From: Ignavibacterium sp. | GTDB taxonomy: Bacteria; Bacteroidota; Ignavibacteria; Ignavibacteriales; Ignavibacteriaceae | NCBI GenBank assembly: GCA_032027145.1 | Contig: JAVSMP010000001.1 | Coordinates: 186,001-250,000, forward strand | Direction of reading: 5' to 3' | Length of the DNA: 64,000 bases | Shown: positions 39,448 through 43,694 of the stretch, one piece after another | Numbering within the stretch: the stretch's first letter is position 1 | Layout of the letters: each line of letters starts with the position of its first letter | Notes under the pieces: model-generated | Told to the model about the DNA's origin: nothing | What the model saw: the letters and a program-made list of their open reading frames with translations, nothing else | Databases searched by the model: none | Made by a program: the position numbers and the translations under genes

Positions 39448-41505
39448 CTAACACTTAATTCTTACATCAACAGCAAAAATTTTGTTTTCAGATGTTATCA
39501 TTAGTGGATTTAAGTCAACCTCCATAATTTCTTTATGATTTATCATCATTTGTGCAAGATTTTTGATAATAGATTTTATCGTGTTAATATCTGCAGATTC
39601 CTCACCCCGGACACCTTGAATAATTTTTCCGATTTTTGTTGAGTTAAGCATTTGATCAATATCGTTTTCTGTTAAGTAAGCAGAACGAATAACTGTATCA
39701 TCAAGATATTCTACATATTTGCCGCCGGAACCAAACATAATCATCGGGCCAAAACTTGAATCGCGGAAAGCCCCGACTAATAATTCAAACTTAGTGGTCA
39801 AAAAAGGCTGAATCAGAAATGAATCAAGCTGTATGTTTCTGCTGCTAAAATCCCAAATCATTTTTTCACAAGTTTTAATAAGCTCAGATTTGGTTTTTAT
39901 ATTAAGCACAACCCCTTTCAAATCAGTTTTATGGATAATCTTTTCACCAACAGCTTTAAGAACTACGGGAAAATGTATTTCCCTTTTATTCAATTCATCA
40001 ATGCTGTGCATTTCATTTTTTACAACCGGCAGATGATAATGATTACACAAATCATTAACATCGCTTTGAGTAAGAAACCGTCCTGCTTTATTTAACAGAT
40101 TAAAATCTTTAATTATCTCATCAGGATAAACCCTGTTAGAGTCCGGTCTCCTTCCCCAGTATTTCAGAAGATTATTAATAACTACCGCCGGGTCTTCTGG
40201 TCTCCGGAACAATGCACGTTTGGTTTTTGATTCAACTCTGTACTCCTGCCAGAATTCTGGCAACGGCATAACAACCTGAAATATTGGTTTCTCTGATTTT
40301 ATTTCGTTAATTCCTTCGATTACAGGTAAAGCTTTAACCATTATCGGTTCTACAAAGACCGAAATAACTGAATCAACATTTTCATCCTGAACAAGAATTT
40401 CATTTACAGCTTTAAACTGTTCTGCTGTTCCGCCTGGAAGAAGATCAACGGGATTATTAACGCTTCCTTCCGGATGAACTATTTCTTTAAGTTTTAATTT
40501 TGTTTCCTGCGAAAGATCAGCCAACACGAGATTATTTTTTTCAAGAGTATCAACTGTTAGAATTGCCGGTCCGCCTGCATTTGTTACAACCGCAACACGG
40601 TTACCTTTCGGTGCCGGAAATTCTTCAAATCCTTTTACAGTATTGAACATATCGTTCAGATCATCAGCACGAATAATTCCAAACTGATTTAATACTGCAT
40701 CAACTACCTTATCACTGCTTCCTAAAGCGCCCGTATGTGACGAAGCAGCTTTAATACCGCTTGATGTTCTTCCTCCCTTTACAACAATAACCGGTTTTGT
40801 GATCTTTTGATCAATAAAATATTTTATAAACTTTTCACCATCAACAAAACTTTCAAGATAGTAGGTGATAACATTAACATCTTTACAATTCTGCCAGTAC
40901 TCCAGCAGATCATTCTCGTTTACATCAGCTTTATTTCCAACGCTGATAAATTGTCCGAAACGAATATCGGTTTCGCGTAATGAGTTTAATACAGCAGCAC
41001 CGATAGCACCGCTTTGTGAGCAGAAAGCCATTGTTCCTTCCTTTGGTTCTTCTGCTACAAAAGTTGCATTCATCTTAACCGAAGAAAGTGCATTAATAAT
41101 CCCCATACAATTTGGTCCAACCAATCTTGCATTAGAATCATGAATAATTTTTAAAATTCTTTCCTCTGCATCTGCCCCTGCTTCTCCTGTTTCTTTAAAT
41201 CCGGCAGTGATCAGTATAATAGCCTGAGTTTTTTTAGCAATCAATTCTTTGATTGTATCTTCGACAAATTGCTTTGGCACCATAACAATTGCAAGATCAA
41301 TTCTATAATCTATTGAACTGATTGTTGGATAACATTTAAAGCCGAGAATTTCATCTGCCTTTGGATTTACAAGAGCTAAATCGCCGGTATAACCGTATTG
41401 TTTTACTGATTTGGTCAATTCGTAACCGAGGCTTTTTGGTTTTGAAGATGCACCAACGATGCAGATTGTATCGGGGTAGAAGTATTGATCAAAAACGGAA
41501 TCCAT
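39448..41505 (-). CDS. ADP-forming acetate/acyl-CoA synthetase, fused alpha-beta
   Basis: The 685-residue protein has the NDP-forming acyl-CoA synthetase order. A CoA-binding Rossmann domain comes first (~5-130; CIVGASSKPKSLGYEL, NPKADEILGFKCYPTI, LVGPNCMGI near 132). Two succinyl-CoA-synthetase-like ligase domains follow, with the phospho-His loop ASSHTGALGSS near 252. An ATP-grasp beta part occupies the C-terminus (~480-685; FPVVLKAVGEKIIHKTDLKGVVLN, MEVDLNPLMI). Known reaction: acyl-CoA + ADP + Pi to acid + CoA + ATP, giving substrate-level ATP in amino-acid fermenters. That suits the tryptophanase and aspartase nearby. The exact acyl substrate is unknown. Confidence 0.93.
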   Translation of the reverse strand: MDSVFDQYFYPDTICIVGASSKPKSLGYELTKSVKQYGYTGDLALVNPKADEILGFKCYPTISSIDYRIDLAIVMVPKQFVEDTIKELIAKKTQAIILITAGFKETGEAGADAEERILKIIHDSNARLVGPNCMGIINALSSVKMNATFVAEEPKEGTMAFCSQSGAIGAAVLNSLRETDIRFGQFISVGNKADVNENDLLEYWQNCKDVNVITYYLESFVDGEKFIKYFIDQKITKPVIVVKGGRTSSGIKAASSHTGALGSSDKVVDAVLNQFGIIRADDLNDMFNTVKGFEEFPAPKGNRVAVVTNAGGPAILTVDTLEKNNLVLADLSQETKLKLKEIVHPEGSVNNPVDLLPGGTAEQFKAVNEILVQDENVDSVISVFVEPIMVKALPVIEGINEIKSEKPIFQVVMPLPEFWQEYRVESKTKRALFRRPEDPAVVINNLLKYWGRRPDSNRVYPDEIIKDFNLLNKAGRFLTQSDVNDLCNHYHLPVVKNEMHSIDELNKREIHFPVVLKAVGEKIIHKTDLKGVVLNIKTKSELIKTCEKMIWDFSSRNIQLDSFLIQPFLTTKFELLVGAFRDSSFGPMIMFGSGGKYVEYLDDTVIRSAYLTENDIDQMLNSTKIGKIIQGVRGEESADINTIKSIIKNLAQMMINHKEIMEVDLNPLMITSENKIFAVDVRIKC

Positions 41506-41834
41506 ATTTTACCAATCTTTATTTTTTTTGATATACCAAAATTAAGGTAAAGAGATGAGAAATTGAATGTTGTCTCAAGATTATCCGATTATAATTTCTG
41601 TTAATTATAAGCATAACTCTAAAAAAAAATTGCACGATAAATAAACGCGCAAATTATTAGGGAGAATGTTTGTTAAATTTTTTAACGTTTGTTGTAGGAA
41701 CAATGATATTTCATCCGCAAAAAATTACCCGCGTTTACAAAATAGCAGTACTGCCGCCCAGACTGTTATGTGTACCGCGGGTAATTATTAAAACCGTCTT
41801 ATCATCCAAATTAATGAAGAGATATGTTTAACCC
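41506..41834. other. 329-bp gap with compound inverted repeat
   Basis: A perfect 10-bp inverted repeat attacccgcg/cgcgggtaat (41724-41733 with 41776-41785) flanks an inner near-perfect 8-bp stem (atagcagt/actgttat). The whole can fold as one two-tier hairpin of ~62 nt. It is visibly GC-richer than its surroundings and lies about 50 bp past the stop of the aspartase gene. It may be a terminator, a structured RNA or a small repeat element. A TAATTTTG box at 41544-41537 (minus strand) could be the -7 element for the acyl-CoA synthetase. No ORF is supported. Confidence 0.6.
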
Positions 41835-43694
41835 CTATCTTGGTCTTATCATATTCTCAGGCTTAAGTAAGTCATCAAGCTCTGCTTTTGATAATAACTT
41901 CTGCTCAAGCACTAATTCATAAACTCCGCGATTTGTTTCGAGAGCCTCTTTAGCAAGCTTAGTACAAGTTTCATAACCAAGTGCCGGATTAAGTGCAGTA
42001 ACAATTCCGATACTTCCTTCAACAAGTTTTCTGCATCTGTCTTTATTTGCAGTAATGCCGTCGATACATCTTACTTTAAGTGTCATCATTCCATTCTTAA
42101 GCATTTCAATAGATTCAAATAAACTTTGAACAATTACAGGTTCAAAAACATTAAGCTCAAGCTGACCTCCTTCTGCGGCAAGTGTTACAACTAAATCGTT
42201 TCCTATAACTTTAAATGCAATTTGTGTTACAACTTCTGGTATAACCGGATTAACCTTACCAGGCATTATAGATGAACCTGGCTGCATCGGCGGCAGGTTG
42301 ATCTCGTTAATTCCGGTTCTTGGTCCTGATGATAACAATCTTAAATCATTGCTGATCTTTGAAAGTTTAACAGCTAACCTTTTAACAGCGGAAGAGAACA
42401 TTATAAATGCACCTGTATCCTGTGTAGCTTCAACAAGATTTTCTGCAAGCACAATATCCAATCCTGTAGCTTCTCTTAAATGTGTAACAACTTTAGCTGA
42501 GTAATCAGGATGAGAATTAATTCCGGTTCCGATTGCTGTGGCACCCATATTAACTTCTAAAAATAACTTTGCATTTTGTTCAAGCCTCTTAACTTCTTCA
42601 TTCAGCATAACAGCATAAGCTTCAAATTCCTGCCCGAGTGTCATTGGAACCGCATCCTGCAATTGAGTTCTTCCCATCTTAATTATACCCGAAAACTCAT
42701 CTGCTTTTTTTCTAAATGATTCTATCAGCTCCTGCAGAACTTCTACTAACTTTTTCTTTGAGTTGATTAAGGCAATTTTAACTGCAGTAGGATAAGCATC
42801 ATTTGTGGATTGAGACAAATTAACATGGTTATTAGGGTGACAATATTTATAATCACCTTTTTCATATCCTAAAATTTCAAGAGCACGGTTTGCGATAACC
42901 TCATTAGCATTCATATTTGTTGATGTTCCGGCACCGCCCTGAATCATATCAACCACAAAATGTGAGTGTAATTTTCCGTTTATTATCTCATCACAAGCCT
43001 GAACAATTGCACCTGATATTGGTTTGGATAAAAGACCCAGATCATAATTAGCCTTTGCAGCAGCTTTTTTAACCATTGCAAGTGCTTCAATAAGAACAGG
43101 ATAAAAATCTAACGTTACTCCGCTAATGTTAAAATTTTCCAGTGCCCGCAGTGTTTGCACTCCGTAATAATACTCGTGCGGAACTTCGCGATTACCAAGT
43201 AAATCATGTTCGTTCCTTGTTCTGCCAGACTGATATTGAGCAGCGATATTTATTACCCGTGTATTTGCAGCACTCATTCTTCTTGAGATAACTCTTCCAA
43301 TGCTTGAAAGAATCGCTACTGCTGTTTCGTTGTCCTCTTTCATTAATTGTTTGAAACTATCTCTTGATAAAATAAAAATTATAGAATCAATTGTGGCACG
43401 GGCTGAGGTTGAATGCGGTGAATCGTCCATCAGTGCACCTTCACCAAGAAAATCATACTTGCTAAAAATTGACAGCCGCTTTTCTCCTCCATAAGGTGTG
43501 CGTTTAAATAATTCAACTTCGCCATCATAAATTACAAACAAGTTCTGCCGGATATTATTTTCATTAAAAACCATACTGTTAGCAGAAAAATTTTCAACTT
43601 TTATTTTCTCACATATTATTTTTAATTGTGAATCGTTAAGTTCTTTAAATAATTGTATTTGTTTTAAGAATTCTTGTATTTGTGTTTTTTCCAT
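41835..43694 (-). CDS. aspA: Aspartate ammonia-lyase with N-terminal cyclic-nucleotide-binding domain
   Basis: The 619-residue fusion has two parts. Residues ~10-140 form a Crp-type cNMP-binding beta-roll (FKELNDSQLKIICEKI, FVIYDGEVELFKRTPYGGEKRLSIFSKYDFLGEGALMDDSPHSTSARA). The PBC-like FLGEGAL...STSARA segment is intact, but there is no HTH domain. Residues ~155-619 are a full aspartase/fumarase-superfamily lyase: HDLLGNREVP, GGAGTSTNMNANEVIANRA, VNLSQSTNDAYPTA, MGRTQLQDAVPMTLGQEF and the catalytic loop GSSIMPGKVNP. TSTNMNANEV and GRTQLQDAVP are aspartase-type. The reaction is aspartate to fumarate + ammonia. GGAAG precedes the ATG, and TAAATTTG at 43735-43728 (minus) fits a -7 box. Ordinary bacterial aspartases are about 470 residues. 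Confidence 0.93.
   Translation of the reverse strand: MEKTQIQEFLKQIQLFKELNDSQLKIICEKIKVENFSANSMVFNENNIRQNLFVIYDGEVELFKRTPYGGEKRLSIFSKYDFLGEGALMDDSPHSTSARATIDSIIFILSRDSFKQLMKEDNETAVAILSSIGRVISRRMSAANTRVINIAAQYQSGRTRNEHDLLGNREVPHEYYYGVQTLRALENFNISGVTLDFYPVLIEALAMVKKAAAKANYDLGLLSKPISGAIVQACDEIINGKLHSHFVVDMIQGGAGTSTNMNANEVIANRALEILGYEKGDYKYCHPNNHVNLSQSTNDAYPTAVKIALINSKKKLVEVLQELIESFRKKADEFSGIIKMGRTQLQDAVPMTLGQEFEAYAVMLNEEVKRLEQNAKLFLEVNMGATAIGTGINSHPDYSAKVVTHLREATGLDIVLAENLVEATQDTGAFIMFSSAVKRLAVKLSKISNDLRLLSSGPRTGINEINLPPMQPGSSIMPGKVNPVIPEVVTQIAFKVIGNDLVVTLAAEGGQLELNVFEPVIVQSLFESIEMLKNGMMTLKVRCIDGITANKDRCRKLVEGSIGIVTALNPALGYETCTKLAKEALETNRGVYELVLEQKLLSKAELDDLLKPENMIRPR

Follow-up and report, generated by a model that had tools for sequence, protein, structure and literature searches.

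A cyclic-nucleotide-binding fold with a non-canonical pocket fused to an aspartase in Ignavibacteria

What does a cyclic-nucleotide-binding (CNB or cNMP) domain do at the N-terminus of an aspartate ammonia-lyase, and what might it bind? Textbook aspartases are regarded as being controlled by expression and by their substrate. A gene in a stretch of 64,000 nucleotides of Ignavibacterium sp. DNA (the window, to which coordinates refer unless a contig is named) encodes, according to a first-pass annotation, an intact Crp-type cNMP roll that lacks a DNA-binding domain and is joined to a complete aspartase, a layout from which direct allosteric gating of aspartate deamination by cAMP or another nucleotide had been proposed. 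Its frame runs from 43694 to 41835 on the minus strand, with an ATG start, 619 codons plus stop and no internal stops, and a Shine-Dalgarno-like AGGAAG can be recognized by eye immediately 5' of the ATG. The features on which the argument rests are as follows.

41835-43694, minus strand: cNMP-binding-domain/aspartate ammonia-lyase fusion, whole gene including the stop codon, 619 aa
43332-43595, minus strand: cNMP_binding domain, residues 34-121, beta-roll and phosphate-binding cassette (Pfam PF00027, 63.5 bits; fold from prediction and structural comparison)
43548-43550, minus strand: Arg49, at the position of PKA Gly169 in the beta2-beta3 loop, invariant (87/87 fusions)
43401-43451, minus strand: non-canonical phosphate-binding cassette, residues 82-98 (FLGEGALMDDSPHSTSA), with Glu85 kept, Gly86 for Leu/Met, His94 for Arg and Thr96 for Ala
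43413-43415, minus strand: His94, aligned with the phosphate-binding arginine (PKA R209 / CRP R82), His in 86/87 fusions
43224-43331, minus strand: C-helix and linker, residues 122-157, with conserved RR (138-139) and QY.SG (153-157)
41838-43223, minus strand: complete aspartase, residues 158-619 (TIGR00839 735.8 bits; 6wng Z 52.3)
42651-42674, minus strand: GRTQLQDA active-site segment, aligning with E. coli aspartase; residues 341-348 invariant in alignment A1
42246-42278, minus strand: GSSIMPGKVNP catalytic SS loop, aligning with E. coli aspartase

Three Pfam families match the protein above their cut-offs: cNMP_binding at residues 34-121, with 63.5 bits against a cut-off of 27.5 and covering profile positions 2-89 of 89, Lyase_1 at residues 168-498 with 338.2 bits, and FumaraseC_C at residues 564-616 with 75.3 bits. 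No further Pfam family, and so no HTH, was found at E-values up to 0.001, which distinguishes the fusion from the CRP/FNR transcription factors; these have the roll and C-helix in common with its sensor but carry an HTH C-terminal to the CNB domain. That an assembly or annotation artefact, or the chance joining of two genes, produced this arrangement can be considered refuted, as the fusion is one open frame in a single-contig genome and the same architecture recurs in 87 distinct sequences, so that a local frame error does not account for it. The layout is thus confirmed as real and spread. The structural claims of the first-pass annotation, namely an intact roll as far as the fold is concerned, the lack of a DNA-binding domain within the reach of the Pfam search, and a complete aspartase, are borne out by these matches and the comparisons below.

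The catalytic half is, by its sequence, an aspartase of normal catalytic appearance. The fusion scores 735.8 bits with the aspA model TIGR00839 (NCBIfam), over the cut-off of 681.2, and 500.7 bits with the class II fumarase model (fumC_II, NCBIfam), under that model's own cut-off of 664.75. Its best solved sequence relatives are aspartases, Elizabethkingia 6wng (671 bits) and E. coli 1jsw (568 bits), whose alignments begin at fusion residues 159 and 157, respectively, and end at 618; on 6wng, the aspartase part of the full-length model superimposes with a Z-score of 52.3 and an rmsd of 2.6 over 459 aligned residues. AspA proteins thus have the whole catalytic half, the active-site segments and the family score in common with the fusion and, compared by sequence and structure, match it from residue 153-160 onwards, whereas the fusion bears about 157 additional N-terminal residues comprising the cNMP-fold sensor and the linker. 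The motifs GSSxMPxKVNP and GRTQ are active-site marks of aspartases, the GRTQLQDA segment carrying Gln in aspartases and His in class II fumarases. Within 87 distinct full-length fusions, whose lyase parts have a mean pairwise identity of 76% (minimum 64%), Q344 of the GRTQ segment and S474 of the SS loop are invariant (87/87 each), residue 475 is Ser in 76 and Thr in 11, and the other SS-loop columns are invariant or almost so (alignment A1). Deamination of aspartate and assembly into a homotetramer, as in AspA, would be predicted for the fusion. In its own genome it is the sole TIGR00839 match over the cut-off; a second aspartase was considered and rejected, the next match (513.2 bits) being under the cut-off, with one TAA inside the matched stretch, and it may represent a fumarase paralogue. 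Also rejected were fusion-specific marks on the aspartase surface: in a comparison of 92 fused with 21 unfused rows (leaving out L103, L112, L117, L150, L159, L164 and L165) only three columns passed, V171, E174 and K533, mostly with conservative changes, and we claim no interface from them.

Among the best 50 structural matches listed for the full-length model, only aspartases, fumarases and their relatives are found, because the aspartase domain fills the list; the sensor was therefore predicted and compared alone. Its model, with a mean pLDDT of 89.3, matches the cNMP domains of PKG, CRP and PKA at Z-scores of about 17 to 19.6, the best of those listed being PKG1 (7ssb; Z 19.6, rmsd 1.4, 119 aligned), with PKG, PKA and CRP-type sensors making up most of the nearest folds listed. 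CooA, PDZ-GEF and trypanosome PKAR are absent from the best 50 matches listed for the sensor, which is uninformative on the ligand. The sensor-alone model shows the CNB roll, a short cassette helix (85-88) and a long helix (122-155) leading to the aspartase N-terminus. In the full-length model, which was predicted as a monomer, residues 140-156 have a pLDDT below 50, as might be expected if this segment becomes ordered only in the tetramer. The same region is strongly conserved in the 87 fusions, with R138 in 86, R139 in 87, and, in the QY.SG linker, Q153 and Y154 in 86 each, S156 in 84 and G157 in 85; as a motif preceding the lyase, QY.SG occurs in 89/92 fused and 0/28 unfused rows (a contig end truncates two of these 28). 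The sensor itself (residues 1-121) is much more divergent than the lyase, with a mean pairwise identity of 45% and a minimum of 26% in the same 87 sequences. It looks to be under purifying selection: dN/dS over these residues is 0.047 and 0.092 in two of six pairs, synonymous sites being saturated in the other four.

How widely is this architecture distributed? A match spanning sensor and lyase is present in 41 of 294 genomes of the same class, own included, with the match starting at residue 52, at a contig end, in one of them (G285) and interrupted by a stop in another (G071). When 395 genomes of the phylum were searched with the sensor alone, at least 20 fusion rows were obtained, recognized as such from frame length and identity, and every one of the 20 falls into the own class; among the matches listed, the fusion is rare in the remainder of this draw. 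A scan of genome contigs, taking in 80 of 88 relatives, yielded 66 full-length fusions by our measure, and 11 relatives whose match begins no earlier than residue 155, in some cases due to contig ends. The contig fusions extend the spread beyond the class, with labels of Ignavibacteria, Bacteroidales, Zixibacteria, Calditrichota, Aminicenantes and Acidobacteria, although such metagenome labels may be wrong. In a tree of the lyase part with 118 rows, 92 fused and 26 unfused (L103 and L112 were dropped, being cut by contig ends), two changes of the fused/unfused state are required. With 36 of its 115 inner branches left open, and a number of the unfused rows long, the fusion may or may not have had a single origin. 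We found no description of an aspartate ammonia-lyase fused to a cyclic nucleotide-binding domain in the open-licence papers searched; it may have been described elsewhere, and entries with this architecture probably exist in protein databases.

While the roll is intact as a fold, its ligand pocket, aligned in the 87 distinct full-length fusions (30 from genome-survey loci and 57 from contig loci), differs in sequence from the canonical cAMP/cGMP pocket. The PKA numbers that we assign to fusion positions were counted along the PKA sequence, and E85 we take to be the equivalent of PKA E200, the cassette glutamate contacting the ribose. This glutamate is present in all 87 fusions. The canonical cassette arginine (PKA R209 / CRP R82) is absent from all of them and replaced by His in 86, the window protein included, and by Tyr in one (L083), which has also lost G86; the glycine at the PKA G169 position is likewise absent from all 87, with Arg in its place. 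In alignment with solved CNB domains, H94 falls on the Arg of cGMP-dependent protein kinase (5dyk) and R49 on a glycine of the beta2-beta3 loop. The pocket columns R49 (87/87), F82 (87/87), E85, G86 (86/87), H94 and T96 (83/87) rank among the most conserved of a sensor in which much of the remaining domain varies widely; a diverged sensor with nearly fixed pocket columns argues for a ligand site in use, rather than for a decaying domain. Residue 87, at the PKA A202 position, is Ala in 39, Ser in 36, Val in 10, and Leu and Thr in one each.

These substitutions contrast with what is found in 14 other cNMP domains, a small sample of non-aspartase proteins chosen by similarity to the window's sensor, which by length and eye comprises Crp-like regulators, single CNB domains and CNB-GAF-histidine kinases. 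There, position 94 is Arg in 13, position 49 Gly in 12 and position 96 Ala in 12, whereas position 86 is Met, Leu, Ile or Thr in all and Gly in none; both members of the canonical Arg/Gly pair are kept in 12. One domain from the own genome (L003) lacks both, and the own genome's fifth cNMP domain (L005), outside the 14, has a cassette with Arg. As far as this sample tells, the joint substitution would seem to go with the fusion and not with the lineage. Changes of this kind do occur singly elsewhere, as seen from L003, which is without the Arg, and from the published ICLR-type consensus cassette, which begins with GEG (PMC2246266). A further CNB-domain gene of the own genome, L002 (C1:2750219-2750662), encodes a single-domain protein of 188 aa with an Arg cassette and adjoins a gene that by eye resembles universal stress proteins.

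The published comparison of CNB families, in the portion drawn on here (PMC2246266), provides a frame for these changes. In PKA, R209 coordinates the cAMP phosphate and G169 packs on R209; the two are co-conserved in families with the canonical cassette, two families being named that have R209 without the Gly. The R209K exchange in PKA lowers the affinity for cAMP nearly ten-fold without abolishing it, so that loss of the Arg is compatible with weak cyclic-nucleotide binding. Cassette changes are described as tracking changes of ligand, families with other cassettes binding other ligands. PKA and PKG consensus cassettes contain Arg, whereas the fusion has His there and an Arg replacing the linked Gly; His at the R209 position is seen in the consensus cassettes of FnR and Flp, which, as described, are not cAMP sensors, and in CooA a conserved His at the analogous position is a heme ligand within the cAMP pocket. 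The FixK cassette (Table 1 of that work), representing the group in which CooA is placed, is without the Glu, which the fusion keeps. In the table of 30 families as drawn on here, a lyase fusion is not named and no cassette resembles that of the fusion, although the mixed group "Other_bacterial" could conceal rare fusions. A different outcome is documented for trypanosomatid PKA, which, with R209 replaced, binds and responds to purine nucleosides (PMC10959531, in part), a Glu at the PKA A202 position being a feature of that site. This change to Glu is absent from the fusions, and as residue 87 is mostly Ala, Ser or Val (85/87), the nucleoside chemistry of trypanosomes would not appear to be used. 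In the f19 genomes, we noticed four CNB-domain proteins of about 550-590 aa (L139, L141, L143 and L145), by eye CNB-GAF-histidine-kinase-like, that combine an Arg cassette with a Glu at the A202 position (GEMELLD or GEMELIE), as in trypanosomatid PKA.

Searches for the cyclases showed a class III domain in 26 of the 41 genomes with the fusion and in 33 of 39 others from the class, which were chosen for comparison from members without a fusion row, so that the cyclase is missing more often with the fusion (15/41) than without it (6/39). The 15 belong to two families, 12 to f21 and 3 to f4, and so are not independent; unfused members of these families (G098, G279 and G042) also lack a class III cyclase. 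Class I cyclase was found in none of 17 genomes tested, namely the 15, the own genome and G229. In seven of the 15 (G268, G194, G221, G179, G164, G210 and G186), all from f21 and one of them (G221) a single contig, no PF00027 domain was found other than that of the fusion. His94 is retained throughout the 15, and so is Arg49 in the 14 that are readable; the sensor, altered pocket included, is thus maintained in genomes, most of them drafts, from which the cAMP machinery searched for, class III and class I cyclases, is absent. The own genome has one class III cyclase domain and four cNMP domains besides the fusion, and its canonical CNB domains together with the cyclase leave room for cAMP there. 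We also considered c-di-AMP and set it aside as no more than a lead: a DAC domain occurs in 16 of the 17 tested genomes, but also in 11 of 14 controls, and a CNB pocket for c-di-AMP is unsupported. The largest complement of class III cyclase domains among the 80 genomes searched, 36 in a genome of 3.0 Mb, belongs to G152 of the same class.

The genomic context of the fusion does not reveal its ligand either, and operon logic was abandoned as a clue. When the open frames of 70 loci (L036-L104 and L111) were clustered, with up to 4 kb on each side and often cut by a contig end, the top non-fusion clusters reached at most 10 loci; clusters at 32, 30 and 13 loci were set aside, as their examples are antisense or other-frame readings of the fusion. 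Downstream of the fusion in the window, a gene at 39448-41505 (minus strand) resembles ADP-forming acyl-CoA synthetases (ATP-grasp, Succ_CoA_lig and CoA_binding) and is below all curated NCBIfam cut-offs among the matches listed. Between the two genes, directly 3' of the fusion and about 215 nt before the synthetase gene, lies a structured element of about 70 nt (41710-41792, minus strand; -29.2 kcal/mol, z -3.9) that ends in a U-run. Its only match in the own genome is itself, and Rfam gave none there at E-values up to 1. Similar stretches follow the fusion gene in L036-L039, and none is seen in the 480 nt after that of L040; across four sequences, double changes are seen at 4 of the 22 predicted pairs, and 9 of the 22 are disrupted in one sequence or more. 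The element may be an elaborate terminator. Control of the fusion gene by a riboswitch or other RNA was rejected, the one Rfam match, of snoRNA type, being under the gathering score and inside the coding region on the other strand, where it was taken as chance.

What, then, is the sensor likely to do? A nearly fixed pocket, a conserved linker, purifying selection and conserved active-site segments together argue for regulation of the enzyme by a ligand. We propose that the pocket acquired its present form close to the family's origin, when the phosphate arginine and its packing glycine (R209 and G169) would have given way to His94 and Arg49. As both members of this pair are replaced and the ribose glutamate is kept, the ligand could be nucleotide- or nucleoside-like with a different phosphate arrangement; retention of E85 suggests that a ribose-containing metabolite or nucleotide is probably bound, not cAMP or cGMP, with a 5'- or 3'-nucleotide or a nucleoside as candidates. 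Against this reading, the invariant Arg49 could replace the lost charge of the phosphate arginine. Binding would shift the cassette and the long C-helix (122-155), which would continue via the conserved linker directly into the aspartase N-terminus, and the tetramer would thereby be altered, turning aspartate deamination up or down. The ligand class, the tetramer, the allosteric coupling and its sign are all inferred. That the fusion is an allosteric aspartase whose cNMP-fold sensor has been re-tooled for a ribose-containing ligand other than cAMP or cGMP is a proposal to which we give an even chance.

The gating put forward in the first-pass annotation is accordingly our best guess and plausible in itself, given that the sensor stays fused to the enzyme and looks to be selected, that no neighbouring gene is common to most loci, and that mycobacterial Pat acetyltransferases, in the part of the report drawn on here (PMC8556138), offer a tested precedent in which cAMP activates through a fused N-terminal domain. 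Its cyclic-nucleotide ligand fares less well. The precedent of Pat would favour cAMP or cGMP here too, with Arg49 or His94 assuming the phosphate contact for classical gating, as would the retained Glu85, the invariant positive charge of R49 beside the pocket, and the cyclase domains of 26 fusion genomes, own included; with the key phosphate-binding arginine and its packing glycine gone from every fusion, however, with no class III cyclase found in 15 fusion genomes of two families and no other cNMP domain in seven of them, all of one family, and with the canonical pair intact in 12 of 14 other domains, cAMP and cGMP are disfavoured by a test that the first-pass annotation had itself set, the lack of key phosphate-binding residues, and we consider this reading unlikely. 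Another nucleotide, for which that annotation also allowed, could still serve. The main rival to our proposal dispenses with a regulatory ligand and sees the sensor as a structural or oligomerization module, through C-helix pairing as in CRP, or as a docking surface. The long C-helix of the model, a QY.SG linker and RR pair conserved to the same degree as the pocket, and the lost phosphate Arg would all suit such a role; a purely structural domain has no need, however, of nearly fixed R49, G86, H94 and T96 in addition to E85 and F82 in a sensor that otherwise varies widely, which makes it rather unlikely in our eyes. Heme or a metal bound through His94, coupling aspartate deamination to gas or redox state, is suggested by the heme-coordinating His of CooA, and appears very unlikely, since the FixK/CooA cassette, in the published portion cited above (PMC2246266), is without the glutamate that all fusions keep, and a ribose-type contact is better supported.

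With mycobacterial Pat (Rv0998/MSMEG_5458) and eukaryotic PKG and PKA, the fusion has in common that a cNMP domain is joined to a catalytic domain, within one chain or through a bound subunit, and with trypanosomatid PKAR (nucleosides), CooA (heme) and PDZ-GEF, that the R209 equivalent has been lost within a kept CNB fold; in contrast to the latter three, the partner is a metabolic lyase. New here are the enzyme partner, an aspartase, and the linked pocket change. The change at the R209 and G169 positions constitutes a natural experiment on the determinants of CNB ligand specificity, and it cautions that an annotation as "cNMP_binding" should not be read as cAMP binding unless the cassette has been checked. 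The enzyme is testable, as a simple fumarate-absorbance assay should apply. We put forward more tentatively, and with some doubt, the wider view that the family represents widespread allosteric aspartases in which the CNB Arg/Gly pair was swapped for His/Arg, with a ligand not known for CNB domains, a ribose-containing metabolite or nucleotide. In Ignavibacteria, Bacteroidales and several further lineages, going by their labels, an important entry point for carbon and ammonia from amino acids bears a sensor of its own, and, if this view is true, aspartate breakdown would be switched post-translationally even in bacteria without a visible cAMP system.
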